A stretch of DNA of 37,247 bases from a virus. The translations under genes were made by a program, and so were the position numbers. Within the stretch, counting starts at the first letter, position 1; each line of letters opens with the position of its first letter. Positions 14,087 through 32,310 of the stretch are shown one piece after another. The notes below the pieces were generated by a model. That model saw only the letters and a program-made list of their open reading frames with translations, was not told where the DNA came from and did not search any database. Location: positions 1-37,247 of IMG/VR virus record IMGVR_UViG_3300049856_000063; one strand, given 5' to 3'.

Positions 14087-14953
14087 CTATTTAGCTTCGA
14101 AGAGGTTTTTCCCTACGGCCCAACCCGTCCTGATATTAACCGTCCAGCCCAAATCCTCATTTAAGCTGGCAACCGCTTGACTCATTAGGGCTTTTGCCTC
14201 AGGTTCGCGCTCGGTGGGTACGGCTATGATAATCTCGTCATGTATAATTGTCACAAATTGCGCGAAGTTACAAATCGAAAAGAACTTACTGTATAATACT
14301 GCAATAATACCGGAAACGGACGACTGAATGAAGTAATTGAGACACTTATAGGACTCAGCAGGTTTTAGCCTATACCCAAAATCGTTAACAAGATACCCGG
14401 TTGTCTCATATTCCTTCTCCAGAATCTTACCAAAACGGTAGACCCCCGAGAATAGCTCCCAGTAGCAGTCGTAAAAGGCTCTAGCCGCTTTAGGGGGTAA
14501 ATGGAAGCCGTTATCCCTGGCTTGCTTAACCAGCTTTTTAGGCCCCATGGAGTAACTTAAACCAAGGGCAAGGATTTTGTGTAATTGCCTATCCTTCTTA
14601 AGAACCTTCTTTTGGATAAATTCCTTGTCTTTAGCCCACTGCTCAACAAAGGTTAGACCGTCGTACTTCGCTTCCCACGCCTCCCTAAGCCTATCAGAGC
14701 CTATTGGAGACCTGGACATAACCATCAGGTAAATATCGTCTATCATGAGGGTTTTACCGTCATAATAAGGCGTTTTACCTACCATACCAAAGTTAGCGGC
14801 CATGTAGTTCTTATCTTGGGAATAGTGGGATGTACATGCTGGTTCCCCCGCCGCTAAGTCAATAGATACAAACACATAGCCTGAAGGTGGGAGCATTGTT
14901 GACATAAGCCCTTTATGTTGACGCGCTAAACCTTGAATATTTAATTTAGCCAT
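14087..14953 (-). CDS. Family A DNA polymerase, C-terminal (palm/fingers) part of a split gene
   Basis: A 288-residue catalytic part of the replicative polymerase. It starts with MAKLNIQGLAR, the second half of the conserved segment whose first half (TGRLSGGN) ends the other part at 15444. Motif A is VSIDLAAGEP (D32, E37 for the canonical DYSQIE). Motif B is R122-x3-K126-x3-L130-x3-Y134. Motif C is IIHDE (H238, D239, E240). All catalytic carboxylates are kept. Position 130 equals E. coli Phe762 and is Leu. GGAG lies six bases before the ATG inside the end of the HNH gene, and the start overlaps that gene's stop region by eight bases. It has no exonuclease or thumb of its own, so it must pair with the product at 15444-16679. 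Confidence 0.93.
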   Translation of the reverse strand: MAKLNIQGLARQHKGLMSTMLPPSGYVFVSIDLAAGEPACTSHYSQDKNYMAANFGMVGKTPYYDGKTLMIDDIYLMVMSRSPIGSDRLREAWEAKYDGLTFVEQWAKDKEFIQKKVLKKDRQLHKILALGLSYSMGPKKLVKQARDNGFHLPPKAARAFYDCYWELFSGVYRFGKILEKEYETTGYLVNDFGYRLKPAESYKCLNYFIQSSVSGIIAVLYSKFFSICNFAQFVTIIHDEIIIAVPTEREPEAKALMSQAVASLNEDLGWTVNIRTGWAVGKNLFEAK

Positions 14954-15434
14954 TGTATACTCCGTACCACTCTAAACATGTTGTTTTATATGCTTCACTT
15001 GCGGTTTGAGGGTCCATAAAACACCCTAAATGTATATCGTGGTAGTCAACAGACATTTTAGCAACCCATCGACTACGTGAGGTATCCCAAAACACTCCTC
15101 GGTAACCCGAGTTATTATCTTTACGTTTTCGCCCATTCGCAGTATTTTGATTATATGATGTAACTCGCAAGTTTACCCTTCTATTGTCAAGGGGATTTTG
15201 ATTAATGTGGTCGACCATTTTAGCGCGTAAAAGTGCATTATGCAAATAGACTTTTTTATCTTTTATAGTGGTTAACATATAAGCTAAGCCTGGGCGTTTA
15301 GTATATGTTCGAATATACCACCGTTTATCGCAAACATCTAACCAGTCTTTAAAGTCGATAAGCGACGTCAAATTTTTAGATCCATGAATTGTAACAACAT
15401 CATTTTGGAGTACAAAAAAGTTTTTAATTTGCAT
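14946..15434 (-). CDS. HNH-AP2 homing endonuclease inside the DNA polymerase gene
   Basis: A 162-residue protein. The HNH_3-type core is at residues 65-90 (H65, then MVDHINQNPLDNRRVNLRV with D75 and H76), followed by an AP2-type DNA-binding domain at 108-148 (NSGYRGVFWDTSRSRWVAKM). Such enzymes nick or cut uninterrupted alleles and spread their gene by repair. It begins nine bases after the stop of the polymerase N-part, with AAAGGGG upstream, and overlaps the start of the C-part. The insert is about 490 bases, all coding, so little room remains for a group I intron core. It is more AT-rich than its flanks, which fits a recent arrival. Confidence 0.92.
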   Translation of the reverse strand: MQIKNFFVLQNDVVTIHGSKNLTSLIDFKDWLDVCDKRWYIRTYTKRPGLAYMLTTIKDKKVYLHNALLRAKMVDHINQNPLDNRRVNLRVTSYNQNTANGRKRKDNNSGYRGVFWDTSRSRWVAKMSVDYHDIHLGCFMDPQTASEAYKTTCLEWYGVYNG

Positions 15435-15443
15435 AAATCCCCT

Positions 15444-16679
15444 TTAATTTCCGCCGGAAAGCCTACCGGTAGCTGTACCTACAGCTTTTAATGTAAGGTG
15501 GTAGCTACCGTCCTTCTCGGACAGTTCAAGTAAACTCTTTAGCTGCCTTTCGACAAGACCTTTTTTCTTATAATTAATCAATAGTTTACCCCCCTCTCCA
15601 TAGGTCTCTAAATGCGCCGCTTTGAATGAGGGCTTAGGGGTAAAGTCCACCTGTTCCCCCCGCTTAATCTTGTCTTTATGCGCCTTACCTGGCTCGGTCC
15701 AAAAGGTGGGTTTAATCCCCAGAATCCCGACAAATAGCCGGGTTAATTGGGCAGTAGACCCGACATTAAACCCCCATTCTTTGCGGGTTAGATATGCGTC
15801 CTTGCCTTTTTGGGTCTTATATCCCGCTAACCCCACCGCCTGATTATCTGTTTCAATTTGAGCTATCTCCGTCTTAAACCTAGTCAAAAAGGTCTCCCGT
15901 ATCTCATTAATCTCAATTTGTATCTCGGTTAAAGCCGCCTTAACCGCCTCTCTATTTACCCTAATCCCACGAGAGCGGGCGTCTGCTACTCCTCTAGCTA
16001 CGGGCACGTAAAGGTTATGGTCTAGGCGGTAGTCGTACCCTATCCTATCAAAGTACTCAGTAGTAAACGTGAAAAGCTTAAGGGTCGTTACCGCGTCGGC
16101 GGTAGCGTACTCCTTTAGCTCCGTAGGTGTCAATAAATGAAGGTTACTACCCTCCATACCCGCCTTGACGGCCTTCCCGTCCGAACCAGTACGGGAACGG
16201 ATAAGCGAGTAAAATTTGGCTTTATGGTCTCGGTATTCAGGCAAAATACGACCGGCAGAGTTAACAAGGCTAAAGCCCGAGTAATACGTTTCCGTTGTCG
16301 TTTCGTCCAGTACTTCGTATTCATTAGGTATCTCCCGGTCATAGGTTTGGAATTTGTTACCTCCGTTATCGTAGACTTGCGCTAACCTGGCCGTGTCCCA
16401 TAGGAAGTCTAGCTCGTACCCGGGGAATCGGTGTTTAGTCACCCCGTATTCAAAAGAGAGGTTATGGCACACCTTAGGAATACCCTTTGAACGTGCCAAA
16501 AACCCCCCTATCTCGTCTTCGCTTTCGAAGTAAGAAGTGCGTATAGTCCCATCCTTACCGTACCAAGCTACGGCCAAACTGATAGCCCTAAAGTCGTCAC
16601 GGTAGTATTCGTGGGACGGTGTGCCGTCGGTTAGGGCCGTCTCAAAGTCGGCGGCCAGTAAGGTAGGGACATAACTCAT
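15444..16679 (-). CDS. Family A DNA polymerase, N-terminal (exonuclease/thumb) part of a split gene
   Basis: A 411-residue part. The 3-prime to 5-prime exonuclease domain shows motif I AADFET (D11, E13), motif II HNLSFEYG (N73, F76, E77 where Asp is usual) and motif III Y191-x3-D195. LDFLWDTARLA is the usual strand between II and III. The thumb follows, and the protein ends in TATGRLSGGN then TAA, exactly within the conserved segment that precedes motif A. The upstream 98-aa gene overlaps its start (ATGA) and supplies its AAAGGGGGT ribosome site. The Asp-to-Glu change in motif II could weaken proofreading; this is inference. Confidence 0.93.
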   Translation of the reverse strand: MSYVPTLLAADFETALTDGTPSHEYYRDDFRAISLAVAWYGKDGTIRTSYFESEDEIGGFLARSKGIPKVCHNLSFEYGVTKHRFPGYELDFLWDTARLAQVYDNGGNKFQTYDREIPNEYEVLDETTTETYYSGFSLVNSAGRILPEYRDHKAKFYSLIRSRTGSDGKAVKAGMEGSNLHLLTPTELKEYATADAVTTLKLFTFTTEYFDRIGYDYRLDHNLYVPVARGVADARSRGIRVNREAVKAALTEIQIEINEIRETFLTRFKTEIAQIETDNQAVGLAGYKTQKGKDAYLTRKEWGFNVGSTAQLTRLFVGILGIKPTFWTEPGKAHKDKIKRGEQVDFTPKPSFKAAHLETYGEGGKLLINYKKKGLVERQLKSLLELSEKDGSYHLTLKAVGTATGRLSGGN

Positions 16680-29404: not shown

Positions 29405-30361
29405 ATGAGCGATACACCAAATACCCCAGCAGCAACTCCGGCAGCAACCGACGCCCCAGTGTCACCTAACTTAGCCGTAGACGCGTGGGACACCCCAGCA
29501 GAGCCTAAGGAACCTAAAGCCGAACCTAAAGCGGAGACCAAGCCCGAGCCTAAACCTAAACGTTGGTTAACGGCCAAGGTAGATGGTAAAGAGGAGAAGG
29601 TAGACGAAGACACCCTAATCCGGGAATATCAGAAGGCTAAAGCCGCGGATAAGAAATTCCAAGAGGCCGCCAAAATCCGACAGGAGTACGAGGACTTTAA
29701 ACGTAAACTAAAAGAGTCTCCTGAGGAGCTCCTGAACGATCCGGACTTGGCAATTGACAGACAGAAGTTAGCCGAGTCTTGGATTATGAAGCAAATTGAA
29801 GCCGAGATGCCTAAAGACCCCAAAGAGATTAAGCTTAAGGAATACGAGGAAAAACTAAAGAAATACCAGGAGATAGAGAAGCAAGCACAAGAAGAGCAAC
29901 AACGTCAAGAGTTTGATCAGGTGGTATCTAAGCGGCGAGAAGAGATAGGGAATCTACTAAGCGACGCTATGAAAAAATCCCCACTTAGTAAGAATCCCGA
30001 AACCGCTGCAGCAACGTTACGGGAAATGGCACTTTACTACAGGTCGTATAAAGCTGAGACGGGGGAGGCACCTAACGCTGAAGAGCTCGCTAACCATGTA
30101 GAGCAGAAGTACTATAAGGGTATGTATGAGCTATCGGGCACACTTGAAGGTGAGGACCTGGTACAGTTTTTAGGTGAGGGGGTCGTTAACAAGATTCGCA
30201 AGTACGACCTTGCCAAACTCAAGGGGGGTAATAAGGAAGCACCCGCCCCCCAAGTCAACCCAAGTAAGGACGCCCCTACCCTACCAAAAGTGTCTAAGGG
30301 TAAGACAGAGTCCCCTTTCGAAGCCCGTGAAAGGATTCGTAAGATGTTAGGTAAGGGCTAA
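29405..30361 (+). CDS. Scaffold-like protein
   Basis: A 318-residue, highly charged protein. Residues 1-55 are Pro/Ala/Lys-rich (MSDTPNTPAATPAATDAPVS, then EPKAEPKAETKPEPKPK). Residues 80-200 are coiled-coil helices (EYEEKLKKYQEIEKQAQEEQ). The C-terminus is a basic helix (FEARERIRKMLGKG), as in scaffolds that bind the capsid by a C-terminal helix. The place between portal and capsid genes is the usual position of a scaffold. AAGGAG precedes the ATG. Confidence 0.85.
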   Translation: MSDTPNTPAATPAATDAPVSPNLAVDAWDTPAEPKEPKAEPKAETKPEPKPKRWLTAKVDGKEEKVDEDTLIREYQKAKAADKKFQEAAKIRQEYEDFKRKLKESPEELLNDPDLAIDRQKLAESWIMKQIEAEMPKDPKEIKLKEYEEKLKKYQEIEKQAQEEQQRQEFDQVVSKRREEIGNLLSDAMKKSPLSKNPETAAATLREMALYYRSYKAETGEAPNAEELANHVEQKYYKGMYELSGTLEGEDLVQFLGEGVVNKIRKYDLAKLKGGNKEAPAPQVNPSKDAPTLPKVSKGKTESPFEARERIRKMLGKG

Positions 30362-30444
30362 AATTAGCCATTGCAGAATAGAGGCTATCCTAGGACGCCT
30401 CTATCCTGTATGCTACCCCACTGGGATGCACTAAGGAGGTTTGA
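30362..30444. promoter_or_regulatory. Hairpin leader before HNH and capsid genes
   Basis: ATAGAGGC (30378-30385) and GCCTCTAT (30397-30404) form an 8-bp stem with an 11-base loop that itself contains the palindrome TCCTAGGA. CTAAGGAGG follows near the HNH start at 30445, an unusually strong ribosome site for a homing nuclease gene. It may be the old leader of the capsid gene, with the stem stabilising the capsid message. There is no terminator T-run. Confidence 0.6.
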
Positions 30445-30918
30445 ATGTTCGCACGAAATTATCCAAAACAACTAGAGCTATTGTCTCAGTTTGAACTGGT
30501 TGAAGGCAAACTCAAAAGCAAGATAACTGGTAAGTTTGTAGGATTTTACCATAAAGGTATGAATCGACAAATGGTTAAGATTAAAAGTAAAAACTTCCAT
30601 TATTCCCGTTTGTTATACATTATGGTATATGGGGACATTGAACCTACTTTAATCGTTGACCATATTGATCGAAACCCTTTAAATAATGATATTGCAAACC
30701 TACGAGTATTATCTAAGTCCGACAATAACCGGAACTGTATAAAGCCCAACAAGTCTGGAATACGCGGTGTATATTATAGAGCAAGTCATCAAGCTTATTA
30801 CACACAAGCCACGACAAAAATAGGTAAAATGAAGTTCTTAGGTTACCATAAAGACATTGAAGATGCCCGACAAGCAGTCGAACGGTACAATAAAACCGAA
30901 CACCCACATTTATTTTGA
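30445..30918 (+). CDS. HNH-AP2 homing endonuclease directly upstream of the capsid gene
   Basis: A 157-residue protein. HNH core: ready pattern LIVDHIDRNPLNNDIANLRV (D72, H73, N80, N85), then an AP2-type domain at 103-150 (NKSGIRGVYYRASHQAYYTQ). It belongs to the same family as the nuclease in the polymerase gene but lacks that protein's N-terminal extension. AAGGAGG lies five bases before the ATG. Its TGA stop overlaps the TTG start of the capsid gene. It is more AT-rich than the flanks, so it is likely a recent insertion whose target lies in or near the capsid gene. Confidence 0.92.
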   Translation: MFARNYPKQLELLSQFELVEGKLKSKITGKFVGFYHKGMNRQMVKIKSKNFHYSRLLYIMVYGDIEPTLIVDHIDRNPLNNDIANLRVLSKSDNNRNCIKPNKSGIRGVYYRASHQAYYTQATTKIGKMKFLGYHKDIEDARQAVERYNKTEHPHLF

Positions 30919-32147
30919 AAGTAGAGGGTACCTATATCGCGGTCACAAATACCCCATCAACACTAGCATCCAGACTAAAAATCGTATATCCCAACGGGAT
31001 TACAAGCTTAGTTCCAGATGGAACAGAGCTAATCAAACGGCTCAAATTCAAATCGGACCTTATCGTAGGTAAACGAGCAGAGTTTGACGTTCAACTTAAC
31101 CACGAACTTGGATTTAGCGTTGGTCAAGGGGAACTTACCCTTAACGCTGCAATCGCACAAGAGACCGCAACGGCTCAAGTCGACCCTTACCAAGTTATCC
31201 TCCGTAGCCGAGTCAGCTACGACTTGATCAGCCGAGCCAAGTCTGAGAAGGCAGCATTCGCAACCTTTAACGATAGCAAATTTATCCCTATGACGGAATC
31301 TTTTCGTAAGCGTGAAGAAACCCTTGCTATGCACGGACGGGTTGGCCTTGGTATCGTCTCTGGTAACTCCTCTGGAGTCTTGACGATTCGGGCTGATCAA
31401 TGGTGTCCAGTACTGTGGCTTGGACTCAAAGGCGCTGTCCTTGAGGCTTTCACTGCTACGACTGGCGGCTCACAACACGACGGCGACCTCACGATTTCCT
31501 CGGTTGATATCGCTAACCGGACTGTAACTGTAACCGGAACCTCTACCTCAGTTGTATCTGGCGATTACCTGTTCTTTAAATCTCACAGGGGTGCTGAGCC
31601 ACAAGGTCTTTGGAGCATTGCTCGAAACACCGGAACGCTCTATAACATCTCTGCTTCTACCTATCCACTGTGGGCTGCTAACGCCTACGACGTCAGTACA
31701 AGCGCACTGAGTTTCGGTAAGATCCTCGAAGCTTCTGCCCTCTCGGCGAACAAAGGTTGCGCTGAAAAGTTGGTTTGCTTGGTTCCACCTAAGGCTTTCC
31801 AAAAGCTGAACGCTGACCAAGCTGCCCTTAAGCAGTATGGCGTCACCAAGACAGCAGAGAACGGATTTGAGAAGCTTGTGTTCCACGGAGCATGTGGTCC
31901 TATCGAAGTCGTTTCGCACCTTTACTCTAAAGAAGGTGAGTGCGTAATGTTCCCTGAGCGTTACACTTATTTCATTGGAAGCCAAGAAATGACAAACGTT
32001 GTTGGCCCCGGTGGAGACATCGTGTTTGACCTTGAGTCTAGCTCCGCTAAAGAGATGAGACTTTATGCTGAATGGACCGTGTTCTGTGAGAAGCCTGGTT
32101 ATATCACATACATGACCCGTTCGGATAACCTCGCTCTGCACACCTAA
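30915..32147 (+). CDS. Major capsid protein candidate
   Basis: A 410-residue protein. Place after the scaffold, size and composition fit a HK97-fold capsid protein. The N-arm-like region (LASRLKIVYPNGITSLVPDG), a spine-helix region (ILRSRVSYDLISRAKSEKAA), an inserted beta domain about residues 150-230, and a C-terminal segment (KEMRLYAEWTVFCEKPGYIT) are visible. Codon use differs from its neighbours (many GCT, ATC, CTC and CGT), as in very highly expressed genes. The only usable start is TTG at 30915, overlapping the HNH stop; no ATG or GTG occurs in frame for the first 120 codons and no ribosome site precedes it. Confidence 0.85.
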   Translation: MKVEGTYIAVTNTPSTLASRLKIVYPNGITSLVPDGTELIKRLKFKSDLIVGKRAEFDVQLNHELGFSVGQGELTLNAAIAQETATAQVDPYQVILRSRVSYDLISRAKSEKAAFATFNDSKFIPMTESFRKREETLAMHGRVGLGIVSGNSSGVLTIRADQWCPVLWLGLKGAVLEAFTATTGGSQHDGDLTISSVDIANRTVTVTGTSTSVVSGDYLFFKSHRGAEPQGLWSIARNTGTLYNISASTYPLWAANAYDVSTSALSFGKILEASALSANKGCAEKLVCLVPPKAFQKLNADQAALKQYGVTKTAENGFEKLVFHGACGPIEVVSHLYSKEGECVMFPERYTYFIGSQEMTNVVGPGGDIVFDLESSSAKEMRLYAEWTVFCEKPGYITYMTRSDNLALHT

Positions 32148-32310
32148 TTTACACCGCACAGATAGCGCGGACCGTAAATATTAAGTCCTGACACTCGGCC
32201 CAATAACCGAGACCGGAGGGCCAGTTAAGAGGTTCTGTAAAAACCTCGCCTATCCTTTCACTTATACCCCTGCCCTATTCCAGGGTGGGGGTTCTTTTTT
32301 GGAGCTTAAC
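32148..32310. other. Non-coding structured region after the capsid gene
   Basis: This 163-base gap contains, in order, CTCGG/CCGAG, GGCCC/GGGCC and GAGGTT (32229-32234) / AACCTC (32242-32247) dyads, then the terminator at 32266-32300. No protein-coding frame of any length starts here. It may stabilise the capsid message or separate capsid expression from the downstream genes. Confidence 0.65.
32266..32300 (+). terminator. Terminator after the capsid gene
   Basis: ACCCCTGCCCT (32266-32276) pairs with AGGGTGGGGGT (32282-32292), with two G-T wobbles and a five-base loop, and is followed by TCTTTTTT. It is a good intrinsic terminator in the middle of the late operon, so the capsid message would be the most abundant and later genes would depend on read-through or another promoter. 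Confidence 0.85.

Follow-up and report, generated by a model that had tools for sequence, protein, structure and literature searches.

A gene for a candidate free-standing homing-type endonuclease of the HNH family lies in the leader of the major capsid gene in a 37,247-base record of an uncultured virus (IMGVR_UViG_3300049856_000063, analyzed over its whole length and hereinafter the window), and ATC stands at the codon where the capsid genes of close relatives have their start ATG. The actual oddity of this locus is most likely a lost start codon and not, as the original prediction had it, a ribosome-binding site that was taken over by the nuclease gene. In the reading that we favor, with about even confidence, the HNH gene was inserted into the capsid leader, the ancestral ATG was lost to ATC, and the capsid protein is now made via a translational restart at a TTG codon that overlaps the nuclease stop.

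The nuclease gene (positions 30445-30918, plus strand) encodes a predicted protein of 157 amino acids that was recognized by profile matches to HNH_3 in Pfam (E-value of 2.4e-14) and to phrog_99 (2.3e-32). An AP2 domain, which had been assigned to this protein previously, was not detected by Pfam at E<=0.01; the other HNH gene of the window yields a weak AP2 match (1.1e-3). Just before the nuclease ATG (30445) there is a strong Shine-Dalgarno site, TAAGGAGG (30432-30439, plus strand), and the predicted duplex with the anti-Shine-Dalgarno sequence (-13.2 kcal/mol) is the strongest among the 44 starts scored in the window. Together with a hairpin at 30375-30407, this agrees with the strong leader and preceding hairpin described in the original prediction. 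The gene ends with TGA at 30916-30918. Searches of the viral contig collection found neither this nuclease at another place nor a version of the phage whose capsid gene has an ATG. A relative sharing the insertion, which would point to an inherited arrangement, was not found either, and this counts against the favored reading.

The downstream open reading frame (30915-32147, plus strand) encodes the major capsid (head) protein, with 410 amino acids if counted from TTG and 403 if counted from ATC; it matches phrog_14242, 'major head protein' (4.6e-14), its coding sequence is complete, and the genes around it follow the same order as in the relatives, with terminase, portal and scaffold before the capsid gene and a head protein after it. 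The capsid reading frame opens at 30894 and offers four candidate starts, ATT 30912, TTG 30915, TTG 31224 (codon 104, the sole other early TTG) and ATG 31290. The latter is the first ATG of the frame (codon 126) and is not preceded by any GTG, as expected from the earlier observation that both codons are missing from the first 120 codons. The TTG at 30915-30917 (plus strand) joins the nuclease end in the same-strand stop-start overlap TTGA (30915-30918) and has no Shine-Dalgarno site of its own (+0.1 kcal/mol). Thus, the description of this codon as the only start, and one without a site, is accurate insofar as it is the only early common start, but it overlooks TAGAGGG (30922-30928, plus strand), a candidate native capsid ribosome site that is placed 8 bases before the ATC at 30936-30938 (plus strand). 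The GAGG within this site (30924-30927) gives -6.3 kcal/mol, a value reached by about 11% of arbitrary window positions, so that its strength alone is a weak indication; the 8-base spacing is identical to that of TAGAGG in the close relative L086.

To place these features, we compared the locus with related capsid genes. A capsid profile that included a relative from a Silvanigrella phage (26% identity) retrieved 80 loci, and the close relatives L084-L091, the best of which show 60-63% identity, came from a narrower profile; a terminase alignment search produced no additional relatives, and capsid queries had no match in bacterial genomes. This nuclease gene is absent before the capsid gene in all relatives found (about 90 capsid loci), and the empty site can be seen in the capsid leaders of L004-L006 and L084-L091. 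After the window itself and two loci without a readable start (L021 and L073) were set aside from the 73 non-redundant rows, 70 relatives remained; the capsid gene starts with ATG in 69 of these and with GTG in one (L062), and all 70 have a Shine-Dalgarno match of at least 4 bases in register. A relative that lacks the nuclease and nevertheless uses TTG without a site, the arrangement that would speak against an insertion-related change of start, was not encountered among them. When the capsid genes are aligned codon by codon, the ATG of L004, L086, L087 and L091, among the closest relatives with 59-63% identity, falls on the window ATC at 30936 (M/I, A/P, x, T, N, T, P and onward); in the ungapped alignment with L086, ATC-GCG-GTC-ACA-AAT-ACC of the window is paired with ATG-GCT-ACT-ACC-AAT-ACA. 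The 50 bases before the ATC resemble the leaders of the relatives with p of 0.07 against dinucleotide shuffles, 0.024 against other positions in the nuclease gene and 0.012 against the whole window, and the leaders anchored at the TTG or at the nuclease ATG are less similar to the relatives than the ATC-anchored one. These values (p of 0.01-0.07) are a modest indication that the tail of the ancestral leader persists downstream of the nuclease and were not used as proof.

The head of the leader appears to be on the other side of the nuclease gene. Tandem hairpins precede the capsid ATG in all 10 close relatives, with the apex of the second hairpin 63-90 bases from the ATG. In the window, the homologous pair stands before the nuclease ATG instead, at a distance of 32 bases. 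The first hairpin (30375-30407, plus strand) has a core at 30378-30404 with the apex C-UAUC-CUAG-GAC-G; the second (30411-30430, plus strand) folds as UGC-UA-CCC-CACU-GGG-AU-GCA and has a short outer stem, possibly cut by the insertion. The UA/C form with a tetraloop (C-UA-YC-N4-GR-C-G) was counted 9 times on the coding strand and not once on the opposite one, with 0.6 expected per strand. Wider patterns yielded 25 and 4 matches on the two strands (3.3 expected) and, for the UA/AU form, 17 and 3 (1.3 expected). Given that the sequences were partly picked for having stems, the difference between the strands serves as a better control. The stems differ between the loci with compensating changes, and no Rfam family matches them. 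The tandem hairpins are found before the capsid gene in the window, L084-L091 and L004-L006, and before a scaffold-like gene in L015, L018, L028, L041, L046, L049, L050 and L066. Judging by the shared apex, C-UA-YC(C)-loop-(G)GR-C or AU-G, and the covarying stems, these hairpins are candidates for a new type of cis-regulatory RNA in this group of phages.

The position of the hairpin pair, 32 bases rather than 63-90 bases from the next start, suggests that the leader was invaded at a point downstream of both hairpins, and the same short distance, along with a site far stronger than those of the relatives, makes it most likely that the nuclease brought its own AAGGAGG. This bears directly on the original prediction, under which the nuclease was inserted right after an AAGGAGG-TTTGA-ATG that belonged to the capsid gene, so that both the site and the ATG were lost to the capsid and translation restarts at the TTG. 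Such a history, which we consider unlikely, would explain why the ATG is missing, with no need for an additional mutation; moreover, the leader hairpins do precede the nuclease ATG, and CACTAAAGGACTTTTCAAATG in L005 loosely resembles CACTAAGGAGGTTTGAATG. However, a hairpin-to-ATG distance of 32 bases and a duplex of -13.2 kcal/mol, compared with -3.8 to -7.0 kcal/mol for the capsid sites of the close relatives, are unlike every one of these relatives, the leader anchored at the nuclease ATG is no closer to them than random positions are, and the GAGG in front of the ancestral start position would have to be a coincidence. On the grounds of hairpin spacing, site strength and this GAGG, a stolen ribosome site was rejected as the main reading. 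The premise that a capsid gene normally has one of the best sites does not apply to this group either, in view of the modest range in the close relatives. Likewise, TTTGAA was dropped as a target-site repeat: it is present in 21 copies in the window, with 11 expected, including one at 30490. This repeat is the only uninformative item among the observations of the original prediction, whose numbers all hold. Of the proposal of an insertion at the capsid start, the insertion itself stands, whereas the capsid gene appears to have kept its site. The two histories differ in what the form without the nuclease would look like: insertion into the leader predicts GAGGGTACCTATATG before the capsid gene, and a stolen site predicts AAGGAGGTTTGAATG joined to GCGGTC.

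Under the leader insertion that we favor, the HNH gene together with its strong ribosome site would have entered between the tandem hairpins and the weak native capsid site, with the exact points of insertion inferred from these flanks, and the ancestral capsid ATG would have changed to ATC at 30936. Ribosomes would then end the nuclease at the UGA at 30918 and start again on the UUG that overlaps it (30915), so that the N-terminus of the coat protein gains the seven residues MKVEGTY; capsid output would thereby also be driven by the strong nuclease site, which could compensate for the poor start. Restart at the TTG is the leading reading because the nuclease is an insertion, the relatives use ATG or GTG with a site and never TTG without one, and no intron is detectable; in this respect, the dependence of the capsid on re-initiation that was proposed originally survives. 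Coupling was detected in 13 of the 14 tested gene pairs with stop-start overlaps (PMC6728339), and UUG starts provide 29.8% of the AUG output in E. coli (PMC11497404). Of five E. coli pairs tested for removal of the upstream site, three lost 60-90% of the restart and one lost it completely (PMC6728339); the TTG at 30915 has no such upstream site, which counts against the restart. Another point against it is that a coat protein made only via the nuclease message would mean overproduction of the nuclease. A stronger version, in which the coat protein is obligatorily made by restart at the nuclease stop, so that loss of the nuclease gene is lethal to the virus and the parasite gene is locked in, is possible but doubtful.

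The ATC lies exactly at the ancestral start, behind a site that is normal for the clade and has the native spacing, and the capsid might accordingly begin at AUC 30936 from the native GAGG, possibly aided by ribosomes that leave the nuclease 18 bases upstream. We regard this alternative as quite unlikely. In E. coli, AUC starts give a few per cent of the AUG output or less, which would hardly be enough for a coat protein; among the 70 relatives, the only departure from ATG is to GTG. It is still less probable that the phage actually has ATG at 30936-30938 and that the C in the consensus is erroneous or stems from a minor variant. A single base change would give back an ordinary leader with a site and an ATG, and the collection contains no second copy of the sequence to confirm the base, but a consensus seldom carries substitution errors, and the gene is otherwise intact.

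The original prediction also mentioned an unseen processing step, as well as spliced RNA in which an ATG farther upstream is linked with the capsid frame. Splicing of this kind, along with -1 frameshifting to the same effect, is highly improbable. Group I introns do reside inside the capsid gene of some relatives (94.3 bits in L064 and 50.3 bits in L035 and L036), but in the window the nuclease reading frame fills the interval and leaves no room for a ribozyme core. A group I intron was rejected given that no Rfam match at E<=10 was obtained in 30300-31000, in line with the lack of a detectable intron. A -1 frameshift was rejected as well because the overlap of the two frames spans 24 bases (30894-30918) and contains no slippery heptamer.

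If the AUG is indeed lost and the capsid depends on the restart, a selfish gene would have become essential for virion formation, a simple route from a parasite to a fixed gene; the locus would also show, in nature, a protein of very high abundance whose UUG start lacks a Shine-Dalgarno site. With a wrong base or with use of the AUC, it would be an ordinary insertion of a homing gene into a leader.

The arrangement resembles several known systems. The free-standing HNH and GIY-YIG endonucleases of phages, such as those of the mob and seg genes of T4, are similarly intron-less, located between conserved genes behind a structured leader, equipped with their own site and absent from most relatives, and segD of T4 is located between genes 23 and 24 (PMC2988022). 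In contrast to these, the predicted nuclease described here lies in the leader of a capsid gene that has lost its ATG, and its stop overlaps a TTG in the frame of that gene. Insertions that alter the translation of an essential gene are also known from split genes, namely, mobE in nrdA of Aeh1 and mobA in the T4 topoisomerase gene (PMC2988022), whereas here the capsid gene is not split and the changes are confined to its leader and start. A counterpart of these split genes is found elsewhere in the window, where the second HNH gene (14946-15434, minus strand) divides the DNA polymerase A gene (14087-16679, minus strand) between TGRLSGGN and AKLNIQ; the relative L092, with an intact polymerase, reads GGSSGPVKLNIQ across the junction. 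The downstream polymerase piece starts at an ATG (14953) inside the 3' end of the HNH gene and has a GGAG site. In the HNH-split DNA polymerase of the Klebsiella phage vB_Kpn_K40PH129C1 (Drulisvirus), the 3' end of the HNH gene likewise overlaps the start of the downstream cistron, with an AAAGGAG site and an ATG inside the HNH end as opposed to the TTG without a site before the capsid. Given that nuclease ends overlapping the next start are known from these two polymerase genes, the capsid case appears to be a variant with a poorer start. It shares the stop-start overlap of co-directed genes with known cases of termination-reinitiation coupling (PMC6728339) but involves TTGA instead of ATGA or TGATG, has no internal Shine-Dalgarno site, and one of the two partners is a selfish gene.

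From the genomes compared here, the capsid gene of this phage group emerges as a hot spot for mobile elements. Group I introns (RF00028) were identified in the capsid genes of L064 (5740-5952), L036 (5683-5935) and L035 (2674-2926), and interrupted capsid genes were also observed in L019, L021, L030, L031, L066, L067 and L083; the interruptions in the relatives are at about codons 46-74. The scaffold-capsid interval itself seems to attract homing genes, as suggested by a GIY-YIG-like reading frame in this interval of L005 (5433-5726, minus strand, opposite to the capsid gene), with an E-value of 2.1e-4 that falls just under the Pfam cut-off. On the other side of the capsid gene, the stretch between it and the next head gene in the window (32148-32300) contains possible hairpins, such as ATTTAC...GTAAAT and CTCGG...CCGAG.
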